39,219 bases of DNA from a virus. The stretch's first letter is position 1. Each line of letters starts with the position of its first letter. The stretch lies in the IMG/VR virus record IMGVR_UViG_3300030107_005092, positions 9,100 through 48,318 of that record. One strand, written 5' to 3'. The notes under the pieces were generated by a model that made no database searches, was not told the DNA's origin, and was given only the letters and a program-made list of their open reading frames with translations. Positions 1 through 39,219 of this stretch are shown in pieces. The position numbers and the translations under genes are program-made.

Positions 1-1
1 T

Positions 2-337
2 ACTGATCAGAAATTCGTATTAGAGATAACCAGACTAGCAACTGATGGTACTTTTAATGCTTGTAGTATTCTTTTAGGTGCTGCTGCAAAAACAGCTAAA
101 ATTCTAGGATATGCAAAAATACAAACTACTACTTTGCAAAAAGAATCAGGTTCTAGTTTAAAAGCTGTTGGGTGGGAGTATAAAGAGTCATCTCATAATG
201 GCTCTGGTTGGAATACTAGAGATAGGAATGTTGATTGCACATACGAAAAAAAAATAAAATGGTGGAAAGATTTAAACCCTAAACCAGAAATTATGCCTAT
301 ATCAAAATATAAAAAGAATGAAATTAATACTAGGTGA
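2..337 (+). CDS. XF1762-like (GNAT-type) protein, 5' truncated by window edge (copy A)
   Basis: Open from the first bases of the window with no start, so the N-terminus lies outside. The visible part carries the family core EITRLATDGTFNACSILLG, then a run of alanines and ETTTL-like and ESGSSLKAVGW motifs typical of XF1762-like N-acyltransferase-fold phage proteins. The C-terminus is basic and ends KKNEINTR. The stop overlaps the methyltransferase start at 318 by 20 bases, so the two are probably translationally coupled. A longer homologue is at 38165-38649. The substrate is unknown; the fold assignment is from family memory. Confidence 0.75.
   Translation, partial: TDQKFVLEITRLATDGTFNACSILLGAAAKTAKILGYAKIQTTTLQKESGSSLKAVGWEYKESSHNGSGWNTRDRNVDCTYEKKIKWWKDLNPKPEIMPISKYKKNEINTR
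254..315. repeat. 62-base identical block, left copy (edge of swap slot)
   Basis: Exact match to 38584-38645, at the 3' end of the XF1762-like gene and directly before the differing cargo genes. The flanking regions 2-253 and 1032 onward are also homologous but diverged. Confidence 0.9.
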
Positions 338-1022
338 TTGTTTGGCAGAAATGCCAAAGTTACAGGATAATTCAATAGATTTAATTTTAACTGATCCGCC
401 TTATGGAACAACACAATGTAAGTGGGATAGCATCATTCCATTTGATTTAATGTGGAAAGAACTTAAAAGAGTTATTAAAGACAATGGTTGTATTGCATTA
501 TTTGGTAGTGAACCTTTTAGTAGTTTCTTAAGAATATCAAATATTGAATGGTTTAAGTACGATTGGTATTGGAATAAAAAACAAGGAACTGGATTTTTAA
601 ATTCTAAAAAATATCCTTTAAAAAACATAGAAACTATTTCGGTATTTTGTAAAAAACCTCATAAGTATAATCCACAAATGAGAGTTGGGAAACCTTACAC
701 AATTAAAAAAGGTGGAGGAACATCAATTTATAATAAAGACAGTAAATTAAATATTGTTACTGAAAATAATGGAGTTCGTTATCCATTAACATTAATAGAA
801 TTTAATAGAGATAAAAATAAAGTACACCCAACACAAAAGCCAGTACCTTTACTAGAATACTTAATCAAAACCTACACACTAGAAAACGATACTGTTTTAG
901 ACTTTACAATGGGTTCAGGCAGTACAGGTGTTGCTTGTAAGAACTTGAACAGAAATTTTATAGGAATAGAGAAAGACAAAAAATATTTTGAATTAGCAGA
1001 AAAACGAATAAATGAAACATAA
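318..1022 (+). CDS. DNA methyltransferase, beta-class N6-adenine/N4-cytosine type
   Basis: 234 residues. The catalytic motif IV DPPY is at residues 26-29, followed by a variable target-recognition part. Motif X-like HPTQKPVPLLEYLI and the SAM-binding motif I (DFTMGSGSTG, about 195-204) lie near the C-terminus. That order (IV, target recognition, I) defines the beta class. DPPY favours adenine-N6, but N4-cytosine cannot be excluded. No restriction enzyme is adjacent, so this is an orphan methyltransferase, likely protecting phage DNA from host restriction. It occupies the slot that holds an ArfA-like gene and an unknown gene in the other copy of this locus (38646-38973). The start overlaps the previous stop. 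Confidence 0.9.
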   Translation: MKLILGDCLAEMPKLQDNSIDLILTDPPYGTTQCKWDSIIPFDLMWKELKRVIKDNGCIALFGSEPFSSFLRISNIEWFKYDWYWNKKQGTGFLNSKKYPLKNIETISVFCKKPHKYNPQMRVGKPYTIKKGGGTSIYNKDSKLNIVTENNGVRYPLTLIEFNRDKNKVHPTQKPVPLLEYLIKTYTLENDTVLDFTMGSGSTGVACKNLNRNFIGIEKDKKYFELAEKRINET

Positions 1023-1031
1023 GGAATATGT

Positions 1032-1355
1032 ATGGCTACAAAAAAAGATGCAGACCCAAAACTAACGAACCGGCAAATTCATAATGCCAGAGGCTTAGTT
1101 GCAACCAGGCTAACTAAACTTCTAAACAGAGAGGCTAAGATAGCTTTGGGTGAAATAGAAGCTAATGCTACACAGGTTAATGCTTTAAAGAATCAGATCG
1201 GCAGATTAATGCCTCAGTTATCTGATATTACCTACACAACAAATGATATGAACAATTCAGAGATTGAAACTGAATATAATGCTTTAATGGCAAAAGCTAA
1301 AACTAAAGTAACAGATGATAAGGTAGTGGATATAAAATCTAAAAAGACAGGTTGA
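1032..1355 (+). CDS. probable small terminase subunit (copy A)
   Basis: 107 residues, charged, no membrane segment. An AAGGAA Shine-Dalgarno lies just upstream. It sits directly before the large terminase, the usual place of the small subunit, which binds the packaging site and regulates the large subunit. The sequence has predicted helices (RQIHNARGLVATRLTKLLNRE) and a lysine-rich tail. I do not recognise a small-terminase motif, so the call rests on position. A diverged copy begins at 38963 and runs off the window. Confidence 0.5.
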   Translation: MATKKDADPKLTNRQIHNARGLVATRLTKLLNREAKIALGEIEANATQVNALKNQIGRLMPQLSDITYTTNDMNNSEIETEYNALMAKAKTKVTDDKVVDIKSKKTG

Positions 1356-1385
1356 CAAAAGTTTATTCTCTTACTATACAAATAA

Positions 1386-2822
1386 ATGTTATCTATCGAA
1401 GAAAAGAAAAGGCTAGTTGAACTACACACTCAATTAGAGGAACACAAGAATAATAATAAATTAAGTTTCTATCAGCCTTACCCCTATCAAAAAAGATTTC
1501 ATAATCTCGGTAAAAAGAATAACCAGAGATTACTCATGGCAGCAAACAGAGTAGGCAAGACCTATTCTGGTGCAGTAGAACTATCATATCACTTAACAGG
1601 ACTATACCCTGAATGGTGGAAGGGAAAGAAGTTTGCTGAACCAATTAGAGCTTGGTGTGGTGGTGAGTCGAATGAAACAACGAGGGATGTATGCCAGAAA
1701 GAATTATTCGGCCAACCAGACGATCCATCGTCTTTCGGCACAGGAGCTATTCCCAAAAGTTGCATAGTGGACAGCACAAGAAAACCCGGAGTGCCAAACG
1801 CATTTAACTCGGTCATTATCAGACATGTTTCAGGTGGAACATCAAGAGTAGGTTTTAAGGCTTATGAAATGGGTTATCAGAAATGGATGGCTGAGAAGTT
1901 ACATGTAATATGGTTAGATGAAGAACCCGATCAAAGCATCTATTCACAAGCGGTAACTCGTACCGCAGATACAGGTGGATTAGTCTATATGACATTTACC
2001 CCTGAGTCGGGTGTGACTAATGTAGTATCAAACTTCTTGCATGATATAAAAAAAGGACAAGCCTTAGTACAAGCTAGTTGGGATGATGCTCCTCATTTAG
2101 ATTCAGCGACTAAAGAGCAAATATTAGGTGCGTTACCGGCACATGAAAGAGAATTAAGATCCAAAGGGATACCAGTATTAGGTTCAGGCTTAGTCTATCC
2201 TGTTCCCCCTGATGATATAAGAATTGAGCCGTTTAAAATTCCTTCCTATTACAAACAAATATGTGGATTGGATTTTGGATGGGATCACCCCACAGCAGCA
2301 GTATGGATTGCACTAGACCCTGACTCAGATATTGCATACGTCTATGACGTATACAGAGAAAGAAAGGAAAGTCCAATTATTCATGGTGCTGCAATTAAAA
2401 CCAGAGGAGAGTGGATTCCTGTCATGTGGCCTCACGATGGCATGAGACAGGATGGGCAAACTTCAGGCATTACCCTTGCTGACCAATACAGAAGGCAAGG
2501 TATCGCCATGCACTACGAGAAGTTTTCTAATCCTCCTGCTCCCGGTCAGAAAGAAGGACAAGGTGGTAACTCAATAGAGCCGGGTATATTTGAAATTATG
2601 ACAAGGATGCAAACTGGAAGATTTAAAGTCTTTAGTAATTGTCCTTTATGGTTTGAGGAATTTCAAATGTACCACAGAAAAGACGGCAAGATTGTTGCTG
2701 AACGAGATGATTTAATGTCTGCTACAAGATATGCCATGCAGAGTTTACGCTTTGCAAGAACAGAAGAAGTTAGATTGCGAAGTGAAACCGCAGATTATGA
2801 TTTTGACCCTTACGGAGAATAG
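1386..2822 (+). CDS. terL: terminase large subunit (DNA packaging ATPase/nuclease)
   Basis: 478 residues. The N-terminal ATPase has a Walker A (MAANRVGKT, about 51-59) and a Walker B (HVIWLDEEP, about 173-181). The C-terminal RNase H-like nuclease begins with an acidic strand motif (CGLDFGWDHP, about 290-299). The length is normal for large terminases of podoviruses. It cuts concatemeric DNA and pumps it through the portal. It is followed after 2 bases by a small gene and then the portal, the standard packaging order. Confidence 0.95.
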   Translation: MLSIEEKKRLVELHTQLEEHKNNNKLSFYQPYPYQKRFHNLGKKNNQRLLMAANRVGKTYSGAVELSYHLTGLYPEWWKGKKFAEPIRAWCGGESNETTRDVCQKELFGQPDDPSSFGTGAIPKSCIVDSTRKPGVPNAFNSVIIRHVSGGTSRVGFKAYEMGYQKWMAEKLHVIWLDEEPDQSIYSQAVTRTADTGGLVYMTFTPESGVTNVVSNFLHDIKKGQALVQASWDDAPHLDSATKEQILGALPAHERELRSKGIPVLGSGLVYPVPPDDIRIEPFKIPSYYKQICGLDFGWDHPTAAVWIALDPDSDIAYVYDVYRERKESPIIHGAAIKTRGEWIPVMWPHDGMRQDGQTSGITLADQYRRQGIAMHYEKFSNPPAPGQKEGQGGNSIEPGIFEIMTRMQTGRFKVFSNCPLWFEEFQMYHRKDGKIVAERDDLMSATRYAMQSLRFARTEEVRLRSETADYDFDPYGE

Positions 2823-2824
2823 TT

Positions 2825-3046
2825 ATGGCAAAAGAAATACTAAAAGGCATATTTGGTGGCAAACCAAAAGTTGAAACGCCTCCATTAGTACCACAAAAAA
2901 AGATTACTTCAGATGCAACAACAGAAGCCAACAAAACACTTGCTGATGCACGAAGAAAAAACATGGGTTACTTGTCAACGATTGCTACCTCGTCTACAGG
3001 CTTAGGTAGTAGTGAAAATGTAAACACTAAAACTTTATTAGGATAA
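2825..3046 (+). CDS. small conserved phage protein between terminase and portal
   Basis: 73 residues. N-terminal glycine/proline-rich part, central ARRKN basic segment and an ending NTKTLLG. Short proteins with a basic-arginine block and a terminal K-T-L-L-G are common between terminase and portal in T7-type phages, but I know of no proven role. It starts 2 bases after the terminase stop and ends 2 bases before the portal start, so it is in the same operon. A virion-assembly or packaging accessory role is inference. Confidence 0.7.
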   Translation: MAKEILKGIFGGKPKVETPPLVPQKKITSDATTEANKTLADARRKNMGYLSTIATSSTGLGSSENVNTKTLLG

Positions 3047-3048
3047 GT

Positions 3049-4623
3049 ATGAGCCATTTTAAAAGATTATCTAATCTAAAGAATCGTGGTAATTGGGAAG
3101 AAAGATGGCAGCGTATCGCTGATTACATCCTCCCAAGAAAAGCTGAAATAACAACTAAGAGAGCAAGAGGTGAATCAAGAGTTGTTAAGTTATATGATTC
3201 AACAGCCATACATGCTAACGAATTACTAGGTGCATCACTTCAGGGTACATTAACTCCATCATCTGCATTATGGTTTGGTATTCAGGTGGAAGATGAGCAA
3301 TTAAGAGAAGATCAGGAAGTTAAAGAATGGAGTGGTATGGCAGCTGAAAAAATGTTTGCTGCGATCAATAACTCTAATTTCCGTTCAGAGTCACATGAAA
3401 ATTATTTAGACATGGGATCGGTTGGTATTGCTACTTTGCTCTGTGAAGAAAATCAGGGTAGACAAGATCAATTTAATGGACTTATGTTTAAGTCATATTT
3501 TATATCAAATATTTATCCGGCTGAAAATCAGGATGGCATGGTAGATACTGTATTTAGAAAATTTGAATGGACAGCAAGACAGGCAGAACTTAAATGGGGT
3601 AGAAATAAACTATCCGAAAAGTTAAGAGATAAAATGAAAGATAAGCCTGATGAAATGCACGAATTTCTGCATGTAGTAGAACCAAGAGATAAAAAAGGTA
3701 AGACTAAAAAGAATATGCCTTTTGCATCTTATTACTATGAAGTAGAAACAAAACATTTATTAGAAGAAGGCGGTTATCAGGAATTTCCTTATGCTGTACC
3801 ACGTTGGTCGAAAGCATCTGGAGAGAAGTATGCTAGAAGCCCGGGGTTTACTGCAATCCCTGATATAAGAACTTTAAACAGAGCAGTTGAATTAGAACTA
3901 AAGGCATGGGCAAAAGATATTGATCCTCCTTTAGGAGTACCAGATGAAGGAGTGGGTGGTAAATTAAAATTAACACCTGCTGCACAAAATTATATAAGAG
4001 CAGACTTAATAGATAAAATAAGACCTTTGTTGTCTAACTCTCGTTACGATGTATCTCAATTAAAAGTACAAGACCTACGCACAAGTATCAGACAAATATT
4101 TATGTCTGATCAACTTCAGATGCAGCAAGGACCACAAATGACCGCCACTGAAGTTCAGGTCCGATTCGAGCTCATGCAACGATTAATCGGCCCAACATTA
4201 GGTCGCATGGAAATGGAATATCTTAAACCAATTCTAAATCGTGTTTTTAACATTATGCTAAGGAAAAATGCGTTAGGTGAAATACCTGAAATTCTACAAG
4301 GCAACGAAGTCAATGTTAAATTTATTGGACCAGTAGCTAGGGCACAAAGATTAAATGAAATTGCAGCTATTGAAAGATGGATTGGTTCATTAATACCTGT
4401 ATCACAAGTTAATCCAGATATTTTAGATTGTGTTGACTTTGACAAAGTAGCAGAAGAAACAGCCACACTATATGGTGTGCCTGATAGACTACAACGCTCA
4501 CCAGAAGAAAAAGATATGTTGAGACAACAAAGACAACAACAAATGGCACAACAACAAGCCTTACAGACAGCAATGGAAGGCACTAAAGCAATTAAAAATA
4601 TAGCAGATGTCGAAATCGACTAA
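3049..4623 (+). CDS. portal protein (T7-type head-tail connector)
   Basis: 524 residues, the normal size for T7-like connectors. Typical features are the N-terminal RLSNLKNRGNWEERWQRIADYILPR region, the KLYDSTAI segment, the FVHVVEPR-like strand (here EFLHVVEPRDKK), the central helix with TATEVQVRFELMQRLIGP and a glutamine-rich C-terminal tail (QQRQQQMAQQQALQ). It forms the dodecameric ring at the capsid vertex through which DNA enters and leaves. The 3' end overlaps the next gene by 17 bases. Confidence 0.93.
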   Translation: MSHFKRLSNLKNRGNWEERWQRIADYILPRKAEITTKRARGESRVVKLYDSTAIHANELLGASLQGTLTPSSALWFGIQVEDEQLREDQEVKEWSGMAAEKMFAAINNSNFRSESHENYLDMGSVGIATLLCEENQGRQDQFNGLMFKSYFISNIYPAENQDGMVDTVFRKFEWTARQAELKWGRNKLSEKLRDKMKDKPDEMHEFLHVVEPRDKKGKTKKNMPFASYYYEVETKHLLEEGGYQEFPYAVPRWSKASGEKYARSPGFTAIPDIRTLNRAVELELKAWAKDIDPPLGVPDEGVGGKLKLTPAAQNYIRADLIDKIRPLLSNSRYDVSQLKVQDLRTSIRQIFMSDQLQMQQGPQMTATEVQVRFELMQRLIGPTLGRMEMEYLKPILNRVFNIMLRKNALGEIPEILQGNEVNVKFIGPVARAQRLNEIAAIERWIGSLIPVSQVNPDILDCVDFDKVAEETATLYGVPDRLQRSPEEKDMLRQQRQQQMAQQQALQTAMEGTKAIKNIADVEID

Positions 4624-4813
4624 TAAAGATTACGCAATTACGTTTGGTTCAGAGCAAGGTCGCAGAGTATTAAAAGACTTTCTTGGCTATCGTGATCGCA
4701 TATCGTTTGATCCAGACCCTTATCAAACGGCTTTTAATGAAGGACAACGCTCAGTTGCTCTTAGAGTTACATCAAAAATAAAAGACTTAGTAAAGGAGGT
4801 CGAAGATGGATAG
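4607..4813 (+). CDS. Bbp19-like small structural-region protein
   Basis: 68 residues. The motif SFDPDPYQTAFNEGQRSVALRV matches the small Bbp19-type phage family found between portal and scaffold genes. It starts inside the portal 3' end and overlaps the scaffold start by 8 bases, so the three are coupled. An AAAGGAGG Shine-Dalgarno for the scaffold gene is inside its 3' end. Role in head assembly is inferred from position only. Confidence 0.75.
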   Translation: MSKSTNKDYAITFGSEQGRRVLKDFLGYRDRISFDPDPYQTAFNEGQRSVALRVTSKIKDLVKEVEDG

Positions 4814-5594
4814 CACATCCGAAGTACAAGAGAATGTGTCCTCTGATTGGAAACAAAGTTTACCAGAGGATATTAGAAACACTCAGGTGATCGAACAAAC
4901 GAAAGACGTAGAGTCACTCGCAAGTCAGTTGGTCAATTCTCAAAAGATGTTAGGTGGTAGAATACCAATACCACAATCTGATGATAAAGATGGTTGGAAC
5001 GAAGTTTATCAAAAACTAGGACGACCAGAAGATGCAAATGGTTACGAGTTTAAAGCACCTGAAGGTGTACAGTTAGATGACAACCTTCAAAATTGGTTTA
5101 AACAAGCAGCACATGAATCTAATCTGACTAAATCACAGGCTAATTCTTTATATGAAAAATGGAATAATATGACAGTTGAAGTTGGACAACAACAGCAACA
5201 GGCTAGTGAAGATGCACTAAGAAATGCGAAAGAATCCCTCGACAAAGAATGGGGTAACGCATCAGAACAAAACTTATCGATCGCCAAGAAAGCAATATCA
5301 GAATTTGGCGGTAATGAATTAAGAGAATACTTAGATTCATCTGGATTAGGTAATAATCCAGAACTAATTAAATTTGCACATCGGGTTGGTAAGGAATTGT
5401 TAGAGGATCATGCAATAGGTGATGGTCGTGATAACTTAACCCTTACTCCGAATGAAGCACAAATGAAAATAGCGGATGTAATGAATAATCCAAATCATTT
5501 ATATCATCCGTCTAATGCGATGAAACCAGGACATCAACAAGCTGTAGATGATATGCAGGAGTTGTTTAAAATGGCTCATCCGGAGGAAAGCTGA
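4806..5594 (+). CDS. scaffolding / capsid assembly protein
   Basis: 262 residues, acidic, glutamine-rich middle (VEVGQQQQQASEDAL) and strongly helical, as expected for a scaffold expelled or cleaved during head maturation. The N-terminal WKQSLPEDIRN and the segment PIPQSDDKDGWNEVYQKLG followed by GYEF are typical of podoviral scaffold proteins. Preceded by a strong AAAGGAGG ribosome site and followed by the major capsid gene after a 76-base hairpin-bearing gap. Confidence 0.85.
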   Translation: MDSTSEVQENVSSDWKQSLPEDIRNTQVIEQTKDVESLASQLVNSQKMLGGRIPIPQSDDKDGWNEVYQKLGRPEDANGYEFKAPEGVQLDDNLQNWFKQAAHESNLTKSQANSLYEKWNNMTVEVGQQQQQASEDALRNAKESLDKEWGNASEQNLSIAKKAISEFGGNELREYLDSSGLGNNPELIKFAHRVGKELLEDHAIGDGRDNLTLTPNEAQMKIADVMNNPNHLYHPSNAMKPGHQQAVDDMQELFKMAHPEES

Positions 5595-5616
5595 AAAGTC
5601 CTTAACTTGTAGTACC

Positions 5617-5637
5617 GAGTCCTTTCGAGGGTTGCTC
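5617..5637 (+). promoter_or_regulatory. hairpin between scaffold and capsid genes
   Basis: UCCU and AGGG pair around a UUCG tetraloop, then a three-base bulge and an outer GAG/CUC stem. There is no U-run after it, so it is not a simple terminator. It lies about 40 bases before the major capsid start. An mRNA-stabilising or processing element that raises capsid expression is a reasonable inference; not tested. Confidence 0.45.
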
Positions 5638-5676
5638 ACAAACAACATTCATTAATAACGAAAGGAGAGAATGGTA

Positions 5677-6564
5677 ATGTCAACACAAATTACCACGAGT
5701 TTCGTTGAACAATACAAAGCCAACATCCTCATGCTTGGACAGCAAAAAGGTTCACGCCTTCGTGCTAGTGTTAAGAATGAAAGTGTAGTTGGTAAAAATG
5801 CTTTTGTTGAACGAATAGGCTCAACCGCAGCAGTAGATGCTGCCTCTCGCCATGACGATACACCTCGTATCGATACCCCACACTCACGCAGACGTTTAAG
5901 TCTTACGACTTCACGTTGGGCAGACTTAATTGATAACGCAGACAAAGTTAGGATGCTTATTAGTCCTGAGTCAGAATACGCTATGAACGCTGTATGGGCG
6001 ATGGGTCGAAGAATGGATGATCATGTTATTACTGCTGCCTCTGGTAATGCACAAGCCGGAGTTGCAGGTGCAACTGCTGTTGCTTTACCTGCCGGTCAAA
6101 AAGTTGCAGTAAACGATCATACATACGACAGTACGTCAGGCGATGTTGGTCTTTCTTTATCAAAACTACTTCTTGCAAAAGAAAAGTTAGATCAAAGTGA
6201 GATCGATCCAGAAGCACCTCGTTTTTGCGTTGTAAACGCAAAACAAATGAGTGAGTTGCTATCATTAACCGAAGTACAATCCGCAGATTTTAATACTGTG
6301 AAGGCTCTAGTTATGGGTGAAGTAAACACCTTCTTAGGCTTTAACTTTATTAGATCAGAAAGGATTGCTACTGATTCAAGCAGCGATGACTTAGTTCTCT
6401 GCTACGCACAACCTGCAATCTGTTTAGGTGTAGGTGAGGACATCCGTGTTCGTATATCTGAAAGAGATGACAAGAATTATTCAGTTCAAGTTTTCACTCA
6501 GATGGACATAGGTGCTACTCGTGTAGAAGATGAAGGCGTAGTTGAAATCGCTTGTGATCCATAG
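5677..6564 (+). CDS. major capsid protein
   Basis: About 295 residues. The N-terminus (STQITTSFVEQYKANILMLGQQ) and the mid region ITAASGNAQAG match the HK97-fold phage capsid family common in marine podoviruses. An in-frame ATG lies at 5671, but the AAAGGAG ribosome site (5661-5667) is too close to it and well spaced for 5677, so I choose 5677. Follows the scaffold and precedes a candidate decoration protein. Very strong Shine-Dalgarno, as expected for the most abundant virion protein. Confidence 0.93.
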   Translation: MSTQITTSFVEQYKANILMLGQQKGSRLRASVKNESVVGKNAFVERIGSTAAVDAASRHDDTPRIDTPHSRRRLSLTTSRWADLIDNADKVRMLISPESEYAMNAVWAMGRRMDDHVITAASGNAQAGVAGATAVALPAGQKVAVNDHTYDSTSGDVGLSLSKLLLAKEKLDQSEIDPEAPRFCVVNAKQMSELLSLTEVQSADFNTVKALVMGEVNTFLGFNFIRSERIATDSSSDDLVLCYAQPAICLGVGEDIRVRISERDDKNYSVQVFTQMDIGATRVEDEGVVEIACDP

Positions 6565-6580
6565 AGAGGAGGGATAAATT

Positions 6581-7063
6581 ATGGCCGTAACAACGCAAAA
6601 ATCAGCCGAAGTTACTAACATCACAGCAAGTCCTCCTACAATGTTGGACACAACATCTTTGCATGGAAGATTACGTGTAGCGTATTTCAAACATACACAA
6701 GATGGTGCAGGTGATGCAACTTCAACAGTTGACCTTGTACAACTACCAGCAGGTAAAGGACGAGTATTAATTCGTTCTTCATTCCTTGCTAGTAGTGCAT
6801 TTGGTTCTTCAAGAACTTTAGATATTGGCTATATCGCACACACAGATAATTCTGGTGATGCTGTATCTGCTGATGCTGATGCCTTTGAAGATGGACTAGA
6901 TAACTCTAGTGCAACAGCAGCCTTTTTAGGAACTGGCACAAATGCAAAAGATACTTATCTTTACGACAGTAACGCAGCATTAACCATACAAGCTGTTGTA
7001 GCAGGTGGAACAATACCTGATACAGCAACACTTGAAGGTTACATCGTTTACGTTCTTGACTAA
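6581..7063 (+). CDS. possible capsid decoration protein
   Basis: 160 residues, rich in Ala, Ser, Thr and Asp with predicted beta structure; no catalytic motif. An AGGAGGG ribosome site precedes it. It directly follows the major capsid gene and is the last gene before the terminator at 7080-7108. Position and composition fit a head decoration or stabilisation protein, but I do not recognise the family with certainty. Confidence 0.6.
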   Translation: MAVTTQKSAEVTNITASPPTMLDTTSLHGRLRVAYFKHTQDGAGDATSTVDLVQLPAGKGRVLIRSSFLASSAFGSSRTLDIGYIAHTDNSGDAVSADADAFEDGLDNSSATAAFLGTGTNAKDTYLYDSNAALTIQAVVAGGTIPDTATLEGYIVYVLD

Positions 7064-7079
7064 GATATAACCGCAGTTA

Positions 7080-7108
7080 GGGAGTATGGCAACATGCTCC
7101 CTTTTTTT
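7080..7108 (+). terminator. rho-independent terminator after head genes
   Basis: Nine-base-pair stem GGGAGTATG / CATGCTCCC (one G-U pair) closed by a GCAA tetraloop (GNRA type), followed at once by seven T. It ends the head operon and sits 28 bases before the PqqA-like start. Confidence 0.92.
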
Positions 7109-7135
7109 AAAACATTTTTTTATGAGGAAAAAAAC

Positions 7136-7210
7136 ATGAAATGGGAAACTCCAGAATATAATGATATTCGTTTTGGCTTTGAAGTAACCATGTATATTTT
7201 TAATAAATAA
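7136..7210 (+). CDS. pqqA: PqqA-like PQQ precursor peptide
   Basis: 24 residues. It begins MKWETP and ends RFGFEVTMYIFNK, which is the hallmark of PqqA. In known PqqA peptides the Glu and Tyr of the E-V-T-x-Y core are cross-linked by the radical SAM enzyme PqqE to make pyrroloquinoline quinone. Here they are Glu16 and Tyr20 with the correct spacing, and the conserved W3, P6, R12 and G14 are present. A TGAGGA ribosome site is 7-9 bases upstream. The TAA shares its last A with the ATG of the tail-tube gene, so the peptide is coupled to the late tail operon. No pqqB, C, D or E is visible here, so it would have to be processed by host enzymes. A phage supply of PQQ substrate, or a decoy, is inference; the sequence match is direct. 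Confidence 0.87.
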   Translation: MKWETPEYNDIRFGFEVTMYIFNK

Positions 7211-7782
7211 TGTCCTCTGAAGCTGAAATATGCTCAAACGCTTTATCCCTCTTAGGTGATGATCCGATAACTGCATTAACTGACGACTCTACTAGAGCAA
7301 GGTTATGCAATCGGTTCTACGCATCAACGAGGGATAGTGTTTTAAGAGCCTTTACATGGAACTTTGCTATTACTAGACAGGCATTAGCACAATCTACAAC
7401 AACACCCAATTTTGAATTTAGTTTTCAATACCAATTACCTCAAGACCCATTTTGTCTGAAGGCACTAAAGATTGATGATGACTATGAGAAGTGGAGAGTT
7501 GAAGGTAGATTCTTATTGACTAACGCTAGTACAGTTTCCCTCCAATATATTGCGAGGATAACTGATGTTGCACAATACGATGCATTATTTACAGAAGCAT
7601 TAGAGTATAGGTTAGCTGAAAAGATGGCTTGGCCTATCACACAAAACAATAAATCTGTTGAAGTGTTCAATGCACTTTACACACAGAAATTAGCTGAAGC
7701 CAGAACCATGAGTAGTCAAGAAGGCTATGGAGAAACATTCGATGCAGATGATCTGATTGTTGCTAGAGCAGAAGTTCTGTAA
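7210..7782 (+). CDS. tail tubular protein A-like (gp11-type adaptor)
   Basis: 190 residues, the usual size. Motifs EAEICSNALSLLGDDPI at the N-terminus, then RFYASTRDSVLRAFTWNFA and a C-terminal AEKMAWPITQN helix are typical of T7 gp11-like adaptor proteins, which form the ring between portal and nozzle. The start overlaps the PqqA-like stop by one base and the stop overlaps the next start by one base. Confidence 0.9.
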   Translation: MSSEAEICSNALSLLGDDPITALTDDSTRARLCNRFYASTRDSVLRAFTWNFAITRQALAQSTTTPNFEFSFQYQLPQDPFCLKALKIDDDYEKWRVEGRFLLTNASTVSLQYIARITDVAQYDALFTEALEYRLAEKMAWPITQNNKSVEVFNALYTQKLAEARTMSSQEGYGETFDADDLIVARAEVL

Positions 7783-10289
7783 TGCCACGCTTTTCACCAA
7801 TACAAACTAACTTTACGGCAGGTGAGTTATCACCACGACTTGAAGGTAGAGTTGACTTTGCAAAATATTACAATGGTGCAAAAACATTAGAAAACTTTAA
7901 TGTTTTACCTCATGGTGGTGTTAAACGTAGGGTTGGATCACATTTTGTTGCAGAAGCTGAAAACTCCGCAGAGGCATCTAGATTAATTCCGTTTGAGTTT
8001 AATGTAGAACAAGCATACATCATTGAAATGGGAAATCTATACTTTAGATTCTTCAAAGACAATGGTTCGATTGGCGAGGCTACTAAAACAATTACTGGTA
8101 TTACCAGAGCCAACCCTGCCGTTGTAACAATTAGTTCTCACGGATATTTAAATGGGGATGAAGTAGATATAGCATCTGTTGCAGGGATGACAGAAGTTAA
8201 TGGCAAAAGATTTATTGTAGCAAATAAGACAACCAATACATTTGAGTTATCCGGAATCGACTCATCAAGTTTTACAGCCTATTCTTCAGGCGGTACTGCT
8301 GCTAGAGTTTATGAAGTAGTCACTCCATACGCAGAGGCAGACATAAATGCAATTCAGTTTGCCCAAAGTGCAGATACAATGTATCTGACTCATCCCAGTT
8401 ATGCTCCAAGAAAACTAACAAGAACAGATCATAACAATTGGACGTTGACTGAAATAACTTTTATTGATGGCCCATATCTTGATCAAAACATTACAGCTAC
8501 CACGTTATCGTGTAATGCTACTTCTGGTTCAAGTAGGACATTAACGGCAAGTACCGCTATTTTTAATGCCAACCATGTAGGTGCGATTTTTTCGTTCTTA
8601 GGTGGCTATGTAACATGTACAGCTTTTGTCGATACGACAAATTTAACAGTTACAGTAAATGAAACTTTAAGCGGAACTGGAACAACCACAGAATGGTCAG
8701 AAGGCGGTTGGTCAACGCACAGAGGATTTCCTTCATGTGTTACGTTCTTTGAAGAACGACTTATGTTTGCCGGTTCAACGCATCAACCTCAGACATTATG
8801 GGGCAGTGTATCCGGAGACTTTGAAAACTTTAAAGCAGGTACAGGTGCTAGTGATGCTTTTATATTTACAATAGCATCAAATAAGGTAAACGTAATAAGA
8901 TGGTTAGCACCTGCTTCAAGACTATGTATCGGTACAGCAGGTGGTGAGTTTACAGTTACATCAACAAGTGATGCACCTCTGTCTCCTACTAACGTATCTA
9001 TTAAAAGACAAACGACATTCGGCTCATCCAATATAATGCCGATACAAATACGAAATGTTGTCTTATTTATACAACGAGCAGGTAGAAAGTTACGAGAGTT
9101 TTTCTTCAGATTTGAACAAGATGCTTTTGTTGCACCAGATATTACGATCCTAGCTGAACATGTTAGTGACCCAAGCATTATTGCATTAGATTATAAACAA
9201 GAGAATGATTCCCAATTATGGGCAGTAAGAAGTGATGGTCAATTACTGGCTATGACTTATGAAAGAGATCAGGATGTTGTCGCATGGAGTCGTCATATTG
9301 TTGGCGGTAACTTTGGCGAATGTACAATTACAGTAACAGACTTTGCAAATATTGCTGTTGGCACTACTCTAATTTTAACAAAGTCAGATGGATCAACTGT
9401 TACTTTTACAAGTGAATCAGTTGGAAGTTCAAGTCCATCAAGTTCTACTGGGTTCAGACCAAACACAAATAACAACACAACAGCAGATAACATATTTACA
9501 ACTATTAATGCTCATGCAGATTTTACTGTTGCTAACCCTGCTGCTAATGTTGTTACAGTTTATGAGACACTAAAAAGTGGTAATGGCAAATTAACAATAG
9601 AAAGTTCCGACACCACAAGACTAGCGACAACAGATGAAGGTATTGCAGTTGTAGAATCGGTGGCTAGTATTCCAATCTCTGACAGAGATCAAACTTGGGT
9701 AATAGTTAAAAGAACTATTAACGGCACAACGAAAAGATATGTAGAATACCTAGACGAAAAACAATGGGCAACAGCCACTAATGTTCAATGGCCTGAAATG
9801 AATACAGACTCAGGATTAACATATAGTGGTAGTGAAATATCTGCCATATCCAACCTAGAACATCTTGAAGGTCAAACAGTTAAAATTATTGCTGACGGAG
9901 CATTACACCCAAACAAAAGGGTAAGTGGAGGTGCTATTACATTAGATCGAGCAGCTACAGAGATAGAAGTAGGTCTTGCTTACACTTCAACTTTAAAAAC
10001 ATTAAGACCAGATTCACAACAGCAACAGCAAACCTTACAGGGCAAAGCGAAAAGATGGAATGAAGTTATTGCTAGATTCCATCAGACATTAGGTGGAAAG
10101 ATTAACGATGACATAATTTATTATCGTACCTCCGCAGATAAGATGGGGAAAGCACCTTCACTATTCACAGGCGACAAGCGTGTATGTAATTTAGGCTACG
10201 ACAAGGACGGACATATTACAGTTGAGCAAACTGAACCATTACCAATTCAAGTATTATCAATTACAGGAACGCTAGGTGCATACGACTAA
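7782..10289 (+). CDS. tail tubular protein B-like nozzle protein
   Basis: 835 residues. The N-terminus (TNFTAGELSPRLEGRVDFAKYY and NVLPHGGVKRR) is characteristic of podoviral gp12-type nozzle proteins. An inserted beta domain at about 105-183 (ITRANPAVVTISSHGYLNGD ... YSSGGTAARV) is a mobile domain found in several phage tail proteins. Late in the protein is a KTLRPDSQQQQQTLQGKAKR segment typical of the family. It overlaps the next gene by 14 bases. Confidence 0.9.
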   Translation: MPRFSPIQTNFTAGELSPRLEGRVDFAKYYNGAKTLENFNVLPHGGVKRRVGSHFVAEAENSAEASRLIPFEFNVEQAYIIEMGNLYFRFFKDNGSIGEATKTITGITRANPAVVTISSHGYLNGDEVDIASVAGMTEVNGKRFIVANKTTNTFELSGIDSSSFTAYSSGGTAARVYEVVTPYAEADINAIQFAQSADTMYLTHPSYAPRKLTRTDHNNWTLTEITFIDGPYLDQNITATTLSCNATSGSSRTLTASTAIFNANHVGAIFSFLGGYVTCTAFVDTTNLTVTVNETLSGTGTTTEWSEGGWSTHRGFPSCVTFFEERLMFAGSTHQPQTLWGSVSGDFENFKAGTGASDAFIFTIASNKVNVIRWLAPASRLCIGTAGGEFTVTSTSDAPLSPTNVSIKRQTTFGSSNIMPIQIRNVVLFIQRAGRKLREFFFRFEQDAFVAPDITILAEHVSDPSIIALDYKQENDSQLWAVRSDGQLLAMTYERDQDVVAWSRHIVGGNFGECTITVTDFANIAVGTTLILTKSDGSTVTFTSESVGSSSPSSSTGFRPNTNNNTTADNIFTTINAHADFTVANPAANVVTVYETLKSGNGKLTIESSDTTRLATTDEGIAVVESVASIPISDRDQTWVIVKRTINGTTKRYVEYLDEKQWATATNVQWPEMNTDSGLTYSGSEISAISNLEHLEGQTVKIIADGALHPNKRVSGGAITLDRAATEIEVGLAYTSTLKTLRPDSQQQQQTLQGKAKRWNEVIARFHQTLGGKINDDIIYYRTSADKMGKAPSLFTGDKRVCNLGYDKDGHITVEQTEPLPIQVLSITGTLGAYD

Positions 10290-25233: not shown

Positions 25234-25994
25234 TTGATTTATTTTCAGGAATTGGTGGATTTAGTTTAGGTCTTGAATCTACCGGGCATTTTGAAACAGT
25301 AGCGTTTTGTGAGATAGAGGAATTTCCTAGAAAAGTTTTAAAGAAACATTGGCCTAATATTCCAATTTATAGAAACATAAAAGATGTCAAAGCAAAAAGA
25401 CTTATTTCAGACGGAATCGAATGTGACGTTGTCACCGGGGGTTTCCCCTGCGTTGACATTTCAACATCAGGCAGACAAAAAGGAATTGAAGGAAGTCAGT
25501 CTGGACTTTGGAAAGAAATGTACAGAGTCATTAGCCAGTTACGACCAAAGTACGTCATCGTGGAGAATGTCTCAGCTTTGCTTAGTGGGGGAAATGGAAG
25601 GTGGTTTGGTAGAGTACTCGGAGACTTGGCCAGACTGCGGTACGATGCAACGTGGTACAGCATATCGGCAGCACAACTTGGTGCTTTACACAAAAGAAAA
25701 AGGGTCTTCATTTTATCCTACCCCGGCAGCACACGAAGGAAGATTAGGTTATCAGAGGAGAGACACAGGGAAAAAGGGAACACAAAAAAGCCTAACGACA
25801 GTAGTAGTAGATTTGGAGGGTGGGAGAAACAAAACTACTGGGCAACTGAACCCAACGTGGGTAGATTGGTTGATGGGATTCCCAATAGGGTGGACAGACT
25901 TAAATGTTTAGGTAATGCGGTAGTGCCTCAAATAGCAAGACTACTTGGCGAAACAATTATACAACATGAAAATGCACATAATAGACTTGATTAA
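25218..25994 (+). CDS. DNA cytosine-C5 methyltransferase
   Basis: 258 residues, short for the family (usually over 300), with a reduced target-recognition region. Motif I (IDLFSGIGGFSLGLE, 6-20), motif IV with catalytic Cys78 (GGFPCVD), motif VI (ENV, 116-118), motif VIII (RKRVFILSYP) and motif X (LKCLGNAVVPQIA, about 228-240) are all visible. It transfers a methyl group from SAM to cytosine, probably for anti-restriction. Most of the gene (25384-25911) is also open in another frame that encodes a second conserved protein; see that entry. Confidence 0.92.
   Translation: MAFKVIDLFSGIGGFSLGLESTGHFETVAFCEIEEFPRKVLKKHWPNIPIYRNIKDVKAKRLISDGIECDVVTGGFPCVDISTSGRQKGIEGSQSGLWKEMYRVISQLRPKYVIVENVSALLSGGNGRWFGRVLGDLARLRYDATWYSISAAQLGALHKRKRVFILSYPGSTRRKIRLSEERHREKGNTKKPNDSSSRFGGWEKQNYWATEPNVGRLVDGIPNRVDRLKCLGNAVVPQIARLLGETIIQHENAHNRLD
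25384..25911 (+). CDS. overlapping conserved protein in +1 frame of the methyltransferase gene
   Basis: 175 residues, wholly inside the methyltransferase gene. It is not a random shadow: it has SLASYDQSTSSWRMSQLCL, EYSETWPDCGTMQRGTAYR, YPTPAAHEGR and a C-terminal LNPTWVDWLMGFPIGWTDL. This string of motifs recurs in phage proteins encoded beside C5-methyltransferases. The same bases give EPNVGRLVDGIPNRVDRLK in the methyltransferase frame, also a recurring motif. Both frames therefore appear to be under constraint. No clear Shine-Dalgarno at 25384. Function unknown; a methyltransferase partner is inference. Confidence 0.68.
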   Translation: MSKQKDLFQTESNVTLSPGVSPALTFQHQADKKELKEVSLDFGKKCTESLASYDQSTSSWRMSQLCLVGEMEGGLVEYSETWPDCGTMQRGTAYRQHNLVLYTKEKGSSFYPTPAAHEGRLGYQRRDTGKKGTQKSLTTVVVDLEGGRNKTTGQLNPTWVDWLMGFPIGWTDLNV

Positions 25995-26085
25995 ATTTAT
26001 TTTATTACTACCGATAATAGTTATTATTTTTATTTTTGCATATATACTAGCGTGGTGTACACATGAAAAAAATAGCGATCTATGA
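25966..26085 (+). CDS. tiny single-span membrane peptide
   Basis: 39 residues. An almost unbroken hydrophobic run (LIKFILLLPIIVIIFIFAYILAW) with a short charged tail. It begins inside the methyltransferase 3' end and ends inside the radical SAM gene. A start at 25972 is equally possible. Supported only by the clean membrane profile and tight overlaps. Confidence 0.42.
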   Translation: MKMHIIDLIKFILLLPIIVIIFIFAYILAWCTHEKNSDL

Positions 26086-26998
26086 TGTAGATTCAAAAAT
26101 ACCGAATTTAGCATTAATGAAAATTTCTGCCTATCACAAGAAACAAGGTGATCAAGTGGAAATGTATGTGCCTCTATTCAAAGACAGCTACGACAAGATT
26201 TACGCATCAAAAATTTTTAATTTTTCAGATGGATCGTTGTTAGATGAAGAAAAAATGATCATTGGTGGTACTGGATACGATATGATGAAAAATTTGCCTC
26301 AAGAGATCGAGGATATGAAACCAGATTATTCGGTGTATCATTATCCTCACAACATTGGATTTACACAGCGAGGATGTAGATTGAAATGTTCTTTCTGTGT
26401 TGTGCCTGAGAAAGAAGGCAAACCAAAACCGTACAACACGATTGATGAAATATGGCAGCAAAGAGATTCTAACTTCATTATGCTCCTTGATAACGATTTC
26501 TTTGGAAATCCAGAATGGCAAAAAAGGATCGAGGAAATTAACAAATACAATTTACAAGTTAATTTTAATCAAGGCTTGAACATACGGAATATCAAAGAGG
26601 ATCAGGCATTAGCATTGGCATCTGTTAATTTCACAAATGCTCATGCGACAAAAAAACAAGTCACATTTGCGTGGGATGACCCAAGGCATGAAAAATTAAT
26701 TCATAAGGGTATAGAAAGAGTAATTCATTGTGGGTTGAAACCATATCAAATGGCATTTTATGTTCTAATTGGCTACCACTCAACAGAGGAAGAAGATTTG
26801 CATAGAGTGGAAACATTAAGAAATTATGGCTGCGATCCTTACGCTATGCCGTATGACAAATTTGATAATTATCAAAAAAAGTTTACACGATGGGTTAATC
26901 ATAAGGCAATTTTTAAAACTATTCCTTGGAAATATTATAATTCTAGCACAAAAAATAAATATATTGATGAAAACCAAATGGGGTTATTTAATGACTAA
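26063..26998 (+). CDS. phage radical SAM protein with cobalamin-binding-like N-terminus
   Basis: 311 residues. The [4Fe-4S] motif is RGCRLKCSFC (C-x3-C-x2-C) at about 108-117, after an N-terminal domain (IAIYDVDSKIPNLALMKISA) that looks like the B12-binding-type domain of tRNA-modifying radical SAM enzymes. FNQGLNIRNI and LIGYHSTEEEDL follow in the barrel. It lacks an extended C-terminal SPASM cysteine cluster, so it is not PqqE. Such proteins are frequent in phages but their substrate is not established to my knowledge. Confidence 0.82.
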   Translation: MKKIAIYDVDSKIPNLALMKISAYHKKQGDQVEMYVPLFKDSYDKIYASKIFNFSDGSLLDEEKMIIGGTGYDMMKNLPQEIEDMKPDYSVYHYPHNIGFTQRGCRLKCSFCVVPEKEGKPKPYNTIDEIWQQRDSNFIMLLDNDFFGNPEWQKRIEEINKYNLQVNFNQGLNIRNIKEDQALALASVNFTNAHATKKQVTFAWDDPRHEKLIHKGIERVIHCGLKPYQMAFYVLIGYHSTEEEDLHRVETLRNYGCDPYAMPYDKFDNYQKKFTRWVNHKAIFKTIPWKYYNSSTKNKYIDENQMGLFND

Positions 26999-32961: not shown

Positions 32962-33199
32962 AAAATATCAACTGTGCGAAATTAGATGGCTAGACCACGC
33001 AGGATCTGGAGGTTGGACTGAGGAGTCTGACTTTTTAGAAGCCCCAATTGAATGCCGTAGCATAGGATGGCTTGTAAGAGAGGATAAACAACGGTATTTT
33101 TTAGTTAATACTTTGAGTTCAGATGCCGGGCAAGGAGGCTGTAGTGAGATCTTAAAGGCCACCGTTACCCGGTTTAAGGTCATTAGAAAGAGTTTCTAA
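32945..33199 (+). CDS. conserved hypothetical phage protein
   Basis: 84 residues, beta-rich: IRWLDHAGSGGWTEESDF, CRSIGWLVREDKQRYFLV and a C-terminal VTRFKVIRKSF. The W-x-D-H ... C-x-S-I-G-W-L-V pattern is frequent in tailed-phage early genes, with no known role. Last gene of the rightward operon; it meets the leftward genes head on, and its final bases lie in the 29-base direct repeat. Confidence 0.65.
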   Translation: MPYKYKKYQLCEIRWLDHAGSGGWTEESDFLEAPIECRSIGWLVREDKQRYFLVNTLSSDAGQGGCSEILKATVTRFKVIRKSF

Positions 33200-33201
33200 T
33201 T
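33173..33201. repeat. 29-base direct repeat, left copy (contains 8-base dyad)
   Basis: Identical to 33498-33526. It includes ATTAGAAA-GAG-TTTCTAAT, an 8-base perfect inverted repeat. This copy covers the 3' ends of two convergent genes. The two copies flank a single minus-strand gene, as expected after insertion or duplication of a gene cassette. Confidence 0.9.
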
Positions 33202-33483: not shown

Positions 33484-33497
33484 AGTTAATCTCCTAG

Positions 33498-33526
33498 TTT
33501 AAGGTCATTAGAAAGAGTTTCTAATT
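33498..33526. repeat. 29-base direct repeat, right copy
   Basis: Exact copy of 33173-33201, including the ATTAGAAA / TTTCTAAT dyad. It holds the stop region of the minus gene at 33525-33758, just as the left copy holds the end of the gene at 33196. Confidence 0.9.
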
Positions 33527-38164: not shown

Positions 38165-38649
38165 TCCTAACACTCATTCCCCTAGATTTATCAGAGGCTA
38201 ATGGTGCAATACAAAAATGGCATAGACACCATAAACCTGCTGTTGGTCATAGGTTTTCTTTAGGATGTATTAACAATGATGGGGAACTAGTAGGTGTTGC
38301 TATTTGTTCCAGACCAATAGCAAGATTAACTGATCAGAAATTTGTATTAGAGATAACCAGATTAGCAACTAATGGTACTTTTAATGCTTGTAGTATTCTT
38401 TTAGGTGCTGCTGCAAAAACAGCTAAAATTTTAGGGTATGCAAGAATTGAAACTACGACTTTAGATAAAGAATCGGGTTCTAGTTTAAAAGCTGTTGGAT
38501 GGGATTCTAAACCTGTCAGATTCCATGCAGAAGAATGGGATACTAGAAATAACAGGAATGTTAATTGTCAGCAAGAAAAAAAGATAAAATGGTGGAAAGA
38601 TTTAAACCCTAAACCAGAAATTATGCCTATATCAAAATATAAAAAATGA
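38165..38649 (+). CDS. XF1762-like (GNAT-type) protein (copy B), start unclear
   Basis: About 160 residues. LTLIPLDLSEANGAIQKWHRHHKP and VGHRFSLGC at the N-terminus and EITRLATNGTFNACSILLG later are the family hallmarks. A strong GGAGGG is at 38151-38156, but no in-frame ATG, GTG or TTG starts the protein; ATC at 38165 has the right spacing. By the numbered positions the frame also appears to slip by one base in an A-run near 38214-38219, so either a homopolymer deletion or a reading error is likely. The 3' part is homologous to 2-337. The stop overlaps the next start (ATGA). Confidence 0.65.
38584..38645. repeat. 62-base identical block, right copy
   Basis: Exact match to 254-315. After this block one copy goes into the methyltransferase and the other into the ArfA-like gene; homology resumes at the small-terminase gene. 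Confidence 0.9.
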
Positions 38650-38771
38650 AAAACAAATTACTTAAAATAGTTAGAACCCCTTTGTTCAGACAGAGAATAG
38701 TATCTGATAAAACTAAATACAGCCGTAAAGGTAAAAACAAAAGGATCAATAATGTTAACAGGTTTAGATGA
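38646..38771 (+). CDS. arfA: ArfA-like alternative ribosome-rescue factor
   Basis: 41 residues. It has TPLFRQRIVSDKTKYSRKGK, which matches the conserved core of bacterial ArfA (D-P-L-F-R-Q-R-V-x-x-x-K-x-x-x-x-Y-x-R-K-G-K). Arg/Lys-rich and no cysteine. In bacteria ArfA places release factor 2 on ribosomes stalled at mRNA ends that lack a stop codon, as a backup to tmRNA. The start overlaps the XF1762-like stop (ATGA) with no good Shine-Dalgarno, so translation is probably coupled. The gene ends 20 bases inside the next one. Unlike E. coli arfA it ends with a normal stop codon. Role in phage infection is inference. Confidence 0.78.
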   Translation: MKNKLLKIVRTPLFRQRIVSDKTKYSRKGKNKRINNVNRFR

Positions 38772-38973
38772 CTGTATTGTTGGTACTGATCAAAATGGCT
38801 ACATAGTTTACGATTATAAAAAAATAGTTAATCATTTTATGTTAGATGACAACATGAAATTAGACGAAGCAATTGAGTATGTTAATTTTAATGTACTTGG
38901 ATTAAATGGTAATTTTACAGTTGTTTTTTCGTATAAAGAAACAAAAGATAAAAGGAATATATATGCCCACTAA
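38752..38973 (+). CDS. conserved small phage protein
   Basis: 73 residues. LTGLDDCIVGTDQNGYIVYD, then a helical LDEAIEYVNFNVLG. This D-D-C-I-x-G ... V-Y-D-Y pattern is common in small proteins of phages and of unknown role. It overlaps the ArfA-like gene by 20 bases and the next start by 11. Together with the ArfA-like gene it takes the place of the methyltransferase in copy A. Confidence 0.68.
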   Translation: MLTGLDDCIVGTDQNGYIVYDYKKIVNHFMLDDNMKLDEAIEYVNFNVLGLNGNFTVVFSYKETKDKRNIYAH

Positions 38974-39219
38974 AAAGGATGCAGATCCAAAACTAACGAA
39001 CCGGCAGATTCATAATGCCAGAGGCTTAGTTGCAACTAGGCTGACTAAACTTCTAAACAGAGAGGCTAAGATTGCTTTGGGCGAAATAGAGGCAACACCA
39101 ACTCAGGTTAATGCTTTAAAAAATCAGATCGGCAGATTAATGCCTCAATTATCTGATATTACCTATACAACAAATGATATGAACAATTCAGAGATAGAAA
39201 CTGAATATAATGCTTTAAT
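38963..39219 (+). CDS. probable small terminase subunit (copy B), 3' truncated by window edge
   Basis: 85 residues visible, open to the end. MPTKKDADPKLTNRQIHNAR and onward is near identical to 1032-1355, with changes such as ATPTQVN for ANATQVN. A GGAATAT leader as in copy A. Identity between copies is over 90% by eye. Confidence 0.6.
   Translation, partial: MPTKKDADPKLTNRQIHNARGLVATRLTKLLNREAKIALGEIEATPTQVNALKNQIGRLMPQLSDITYTTNDMNNSEIETEYNAL

Follow-up and report, generated by a model that had tools for sequence, protein, structure and literature searches.

A lone gene for the PQQ precursor peptide PqqA in a marine phage, probably a substrate supplement for host cofactor synthesis

The window (the whole 39,219-nucleotide stretch analysed here, positions 9,100 to 48,318 of IMG/VR record IMGVR_UViG_3300030107_005092) belongs to a marine phage that carries, between two late genes, a 24-codon gene for PqqA, the peptide precursor from which bacteria build the vitamin-like cofactor PQQ. 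Judging from sequence comparisons, we propose with a probability of roughly 0.7 that this pqqA is an auxiliary metabolic gene, which would boost PQQ synthesis by supplying the consumed substrate to the host Pqq enzymes. On balance we also favor a wider statement, namely that phages of PQQ-dependent alcohol, methanol and methane oxidisers, of unrelated types and from ~35 to ~370 kb in size, have repeatedly acquired pqqA alone and would raise the host cofactor through its consumed ribosomal precursor, sometimes beside pmoC or a PQQ dehydrogenase, and that the gene was overlooked because it has only ~24 codons.

The features of the locus are as follows.
5671-6564, plus strand: major capsid protein (phrog_3437)
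6581-7063, plus strand: 160-aa gene 3' of the capsid gene, no PHROG match
7079-7109, plus strand: intrinsic terminator directly upstream of the cassette, with a 10-bp stem, a 4-nt loop and a T run
7120-7209, plus strand: inserted cassette (ribosome site and pqqA), approximate extent, missing in the sister phages L139, L140, L141, L304, L305 and L306
7124-7129, plus strand: ribosome-binding site of pqqA, GAGGAA, 6 bases 5' of the ATG
7136-7210, plus strand: pqqA, 24-aa PqqA precursor peptide MKWETPEYNDIRFGFEVTMYIFNK, from translation and profile scores
7210-7782, plus strand: tail tubular protein A, one-base overlap with the pqqA stop, no ribosome site of its own

The initial annotation had described a 24-residue gene with the PqqA hallmark, and the reading frame at 7136-7210 is indeed predicted to encode a bona fide PqqA. 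W3, P6, R12, G14, E16 and Y20 are all present in its translation, with E16 and Y20 forming the Glu-x-x-x-Tyr motif that is the source of PQQ and was defined previously (PMC2294125). The peptide scores 43.4 bits against the Pfam PqqA profile (PF08042, cut-off 21.1) and 44.8 bits against the NCBIfam equivalog TIGR02107 (cut-off 20), and its 24 residues behind GAGGAA agree with a PqqA of 23 to 39 aa with a ribosome site. The full spaced PqqA pattern occurs once in the window and in none of 100 dinucleotide shuffles, and the core motif G[FLM]E[VA]T.Y has no occurrence across 200 Markov windows read in six frames each. The good ribosome site and the one-base overlap with the tail-tube gene (stop at 7208-7210, next start at 7210) were as first described; the leader at this site, TATGAGGAAA, is similar to those of cellular lone pqqA copies, and RNA folding at the slot is unremarkable (z -0.89). 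The whole 48.3-kb record holds this single PqqA in a PF08042 scan, and tblastn with PqqB, PqqC, PqqD and PqqE gave no match in the record's first 9.1 kb or in the window, which upholds the earlier statement that the window contains no other pqq gene; a complete pqqABCDE locus is thus not found in the phage record. We discarded the idea that the radical-SAM-like protein at 26063-26998 (plus strand) serves the phage as a private PqqE, since it scores only 28.7 bits with PF04055, just below the cut-off of 29.5, and gave no PqqE match.

The genes around pqqA encode terminase, portal, scaffold/protease, major capsid protein and tail tubular proteins A and B, which places it inside a genuine phage genome, the setting expected of an auxiliary metabolic gene. 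The nearest cultured relative is the pelagiphage Baldr (TerL 59% identity), whose gene annotated as tail tubular protein A is 50% identical to the gene at 7210, which also matches phrog_394 (1.8e-55). Because of the overlap and the lack of a separate ribosome site, tail tubular protein A is probably translationally coupled to pqqA, and the tail gene would now depend on translation through it. Upstream, the hairpin proper (7079-7102) and its T run were correctly recognised before as a terminator, but they follow the 160-aa gene and not the capsid gene. We found no tRNA in the window and no attachment-site clue to the host.

Several other details of the record were observed. Its 48.3 kb exceed one genome, and sequence of the window recurs at the ends with an identity of only 73-92% (window 1-323 vs 38329-38651 and 1021-1288 vs 38952-39219; L131, record bases 1-9150), as if the assembly had joined two related phage variants head to tail. 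A C5-cytosine methylase gene (PF00145, 25218-25994, plus strand) overlaps in another frame a 175-aa ORF (25384-25911, plus strand) that ends in plausible protein sequence, NPTWVDWLMGFPIGWTDL, and may be an out-of-frame overlapping gene. A perfect 30-bp direct repeat (33172-33201 and 33497-33526) flanks a small minus-strand gene.

Relatives of the phage were gathered through the tail and capsid proteins, without PqqA being used for selection. An intact pqqA occupies this slot in the window and in 7 close relatives; none of the eight copies is broken, and the alleles differ by one silent (GTA/GTC) and one amino acid (F22C) change, so that selection is not measurable in this lineage. A PqqA motif search of the slot was negative in 57 relatives spanning both flanking genes, Baldr included; these are the 3 nearest sisters (93-94% capsid protein identity) and 54 more distant phages, 3 of them at 78%. 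In the aligned junction, the nearest sisters retain the terminator, which is followed by TTTTTAGGATAAACACAATG up to the tail start, and have their own ribosome site for the tail gene; in place of this sequence the window has the leader TATGAGGAAAAAAAC, pqqA and the overlapping tail start. The empty slot in the sisters and the clean junction indicate that pqqA is a recent, clean insertion in the window lineage. Lack of the peptide in related phages had been named in the initial annotation as a point against its reading; the lack is real, in 57 relatives, but its pattern is that of a recent gain and not of decay.

Where the insertion came from was examined on the host side. A scan of bacterial and archaeal genomes with a KW[ED]TP...RFGFEVTMYI-type pattern gave at least 120 matches, and the informative titles among the matches listed are Methylococcales, Cycloclasticus, Thiotrichales, Piscirickettsiaceae and other gammaproteobacteria, the rest being unresolved bins. 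The nearest cellular peptide among the matches listed, MKWETPEYNDIRFGFEVTMYINNK (L151, L204), differs from the window PqqA at 1 residue. We then searched 53 genomes from the gammaproteobacterial order to which L204 belongs for DNA similarity to the 19.9-kb late region of the phage. Strong DNA matches, up to 92% identity, appeared in 36 of them and were confined to pqqA and its leader (about 7102-7230), the sole strong bacterial match in the 19.9 kb; the remaining matches were few, short and near the significance limit. PqqA is encoded in 44 of the 53 genomes, with 2 to 6 copies, often dispersed, in 28, and a PQQ methanol/ethanol-type dehydrogenase scores above cut-off in 39, while PqqE does so in 33 of 35 genomes sampled from the pattern matches listed. 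Some of the copies are tandem pairs; in several gammaproteobacterial genomes (G013, G113, G121, G125, G126, G129 and G022) such pairs lie ~110-140 bases apart and apparently away from pqqE. The best DNA match among the aligned 75-base genes (88%) is another phage contig (L271, L273), which makes phage-to-phage transfer equally possible. The best explanation appears to be that the window pqqA came from a PQQ-making gammaproteobacterial host, or via another phage of such hosts; judged by pqqA alone, the host of the window phage is probably a PQQ-making gammaproteobacterium.

The lone gene is not confined to this lineage. Searching 50,697 phage records by tblastn with three PqqA types returned the same 12 records each time: nine phages of Methylophilales/Methylophilaceae (P19250A, MEP301, MEP401, MEP402, Venkman and four Melnitz variants), a podovirus from spring water and two contigs labelled Acinetobacter. 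A lone pqqA is thus present in every one of the nine cultured Methylophilales phage records recovered; other named Methylophilales phages are not among the 12 and may be absent from the collection. A whole-record PF08042 search found exactly one PqqA above cut-off in one Melnitz variant, the five other OM43 phages and the podovirus. The two contigs named 'Acinetobacter phage MD-2021a' were set aside as phage evidence, the examined one having a complete pqqABCDE beside bacterial genes; this record (L128, CAKLQF020000010.1) is apparently bacterial DNA filed under phages. The prediction that gene callers would miss the peptide was borne out, since PqqA is annotated as such in none of the phage records examined: five OM43 records have no feature at the position, and an opposite-strand ORF is called there in Melnitz-1 and the podovirus.

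In IMG/VR, the general PqqA pattern matched at least 120 contigs and the KW pattern 39, over 150 together. These degenerate DNA patterns fix several residues, and we therefore do not use conservation of those residues as evidence. The contigs listed fall into 25 shared-gene clusters and 105 neighbour contexts, numbers partly inflated by short contigs. Among the matches listed, pqqB-E lie within 3 kb at 0 of 127 viral loci vs 81 of 105 cellular loci, and 50 long viral records, searched over their full length, yielded no PqqE. At 41 viral pqqA loci the genes on either side run on the opposite strand, and a terminator-like hairpin stands 3' of 73/159 viral pqqA genes vs 149/1478 other ORFs, again among the matches listed; these two features make pqqA a stand-alone unit in many phages, to which the operonic pqqA of the window is an exception. 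Upstream sigma-70-type promoters are not enriched (10/158 for viral pqqA, where shuffling gives 7.6, and 87/1465 for other ORFs), so we do not claim a dedicated promoter.

Companion genes and selection were assessed on other contigs of this set. Two large contigs, of 171 kb and 372 kb, carry pmoC (404 bits) and a lone pqqA, with a terminase on the larger; pmoC lies at 55417-56133 of G078 and 249671-250387 of G084, and pqqA in L276 and L287. In a related 372-kb contig (G080), pqqA adjoins a PAAR-motif gene and no pmoC match was obtained; a search anchored on the PAAR-motif protein beside the large-phage pqqA found two contigs only, both already in the set. On a 72-kb contig, a PQQ alcohol dehydrogenase (TIGR03075, 608 bits) lies ~6 kb from pqqA, which adjoins a SoxY-SoxZ fusion; no terminase was found on it, and its phage nature is read from full-length matches to PHROG families of unknown function. 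Within ~9 kb of this contig (L301, G046:28000-46500), the PQQ methanol/ethanol-type dehydrogenase, a 946-aa protein of the PHROG 'DmsA' family, the lone pqqA and the SoxY-SoxZ fusion occur together. A further set was built on the recombinase gene of Venkman and not on the PqqA pattern. In this set PqqA is intact and at the same position on 31 contigs; its seven DNA alleles give dN 0.046, dS 0.50 and dN/dS about 0.09. Three related contigs (79% recombinase identity) are cleanly without pqqA. These values indicate that pqqA is under purifying selection in the Venkman-type lineage.

What a phage might gain from pqqA alone follows from the chemistry of the pathway. The pathway consumes PqqA: PqqE cross-links its Glu and Tyr, and one peptide is spent per PQQ while the Pqq enzymes turn over; this makes the peptide the part worth adding. 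PQQ enzymes carry out the first step of methanol oxidation and act after methane oxidation. PqqA has been described as a stoichiometric substrate whose protein level is about 20-fold above that of PqqC and PqqE (PMC2294125). In Methylophilaceae, 3-12 pqqA copies typically accompany a single set of the remaining pqq genes (PMC4109929), and one of the highly expressed copies in a methylotrophic production strain is a solitary pqqA (PMC9851590). Hosts raise peptide dosage in trans, and a phage with pqqA alone would do the same. We suggest that pqqA would be translated late in infection, immediately ahead of the tail gene, and that the phage peptide would add substrate for host PqqD, PqqE, PqqB and PqqC; the extra PQQ could keep PQQ-dependent alcohol (methanol-type) dehydrogenases loaded, and these would sustain respiration and carbon supply for phage production, to the benefit of the phage. 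The one-gene cassette thus probably serves to keep the alcohol-oxidising enzymes of the infected host running.

Substrate supply is the best supported reading, given that pqqA is under purifying selection in the Venkman-type lineage, has been acquired alone again and again, is multiplied by hosts as well, and occurs in phages in the company of pmoC and a methanol-dehydrogenase-family gene. Against it count the position of the window pqqA behind a terminator together with the lack of viral promoter enrichment, which leave its transcription putative, the deduction of the host from pqqA itself, and the absence of a PQQ enzyme from the window phage. The same comparative facts would fit a gene that merely replaces host pqqA mRNA or peptide lost through host shut-off, in which again only the consumed part of a stoichiometric reaction (PMC2294125) is carried; however, the hosts are already buffered by several pqqA copies, and with data that equally fit a boost we regard such maintenance as unlikely. 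The initial annotation had offered, besides extra substrate, a decoy that ties up PqqE. Such a decoy would occupy PqqE/PqqD and lower host PQQ or block a PQQ-linked defence. Titration of an enzyme by a substrate carried alone is conceivable in principle, but a decoy would tolerate loss of Glu or Tyr, whereas both of these and the residues needed for recognition are preserved throughout the window lineage and the 31 neighbour-anchored copies, and the company of pmoC and a PQQ dehydrogenase points to pathway support. With every normal-substrate residue kept, the decoy is without positive support and very improbable, and of the two proposed functions extra substrate is favored, on comparative evidence.

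The youth of the insertion in the window lineage, where alleles are two substitutions apart, also suits a passenger, that is, a host fragment recently landed between two late genes and as yet without function. This is improbable, since the gene is joined to the operon by its one-base overlap with none of the eight copies broken, lone pqqA was gained in many unrelated phages, and it is under apparent purifying selection where this is measurable. The overlap and the tail gene's lack of a separate ribosome site could instead mean that the short gene mainly sets translation of the tail gene, but such a leader role needs no PqqA sequence, the sister phages translate the tail gene without pqqA from its own ribosome site, and pqqA is uncoupled in many phages, including the 41 loci with both neighbours on the opposite strand; we give this explanation hardly any credit. 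Substrate supply therefore remains our preferred reading, in which expression, use of the peptide by host PqqE, the rise in PQQ and the phage benefit are what we infer.

If phages commonly push PQQ supply, infection could change how quickly C1 compounds are oxidised by abundant methylotrophs and methanotrophs. Phage metabolic genes usually encode enzymes, whereas here the phage would add a consumed substrate and leave the rest to host enzymes, a one-gene logic that is open to experiment in cultured OM43 phages. The published OM43 medium includes 1 nM PQQ (PMC9004378), an amount that could hide an effect of phage pqqA. Peptides under gene-caller length limits escape surveys of phage metabolic genes, even in published isolate genomes.

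Viral PqqA as a kind is already known, which answers the question raised at the outset of whether phage PqqA had been described before: viruses of Lake Baikal methylotrophs (2020, population VP_266) have a viral PqqA with a viral methanol dehydrogenase (PMC7678222), and a 2026 reservoir survey lists pqqA among viral genes read as phosphate-solubilising (PMC13188868). The OM43 phage literature checked (open-licence papers) makes no mention of viral pqqA, nor does the main text of the pmoC-phage paper (PMC7674155) mention pqq. The breadth of lone pqqA, the one-gene logic and the insertion history appear to be new; new are the lone-gene pattern across unrelated phages, cultured and pmoC-bearing ones included, the empty-site evidence and the host-side match.

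Compared with known systems, the window gene is closest to cellular gammaproteobacterial PqqA such as that of L204, with which it shares 23 of 24 residues, all family-defining positions, a similar leader and, with many cellular copies, a place not adjoining pqqBCDE; it differs in sitting in a phage late operon, overlapping a tail gene, in a record without any pqq enzyme. The Lake Baikal PqqA (PMC7678222) is likewise phage-encoded and was put forward as an auxiliary metabolic gene serving methanol oxidation; the window phage, a member of a Baldr-related lineage, differs in that no methanol dehydrogenase was seen in it and its PqqA is of the gammaproteobacterial KW type. The OM43 phages P19250A, MEP301, MEP401, MEP402, Venkman and Melnitz also combine a lone pqqA with a PQQ-using host, but their PqqA is MWTxPxATEMRFGFEVTMYVMNK-like, stands at other genome positions and is often not operonic. 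The pmoC phages of methanotrophs (PMC7674155) similarly carry a gene supporting methane/methanol oxidation; pmoC, however, encodes an enzyme subunit, whereas pqqA encodes a precursor that is consumed.
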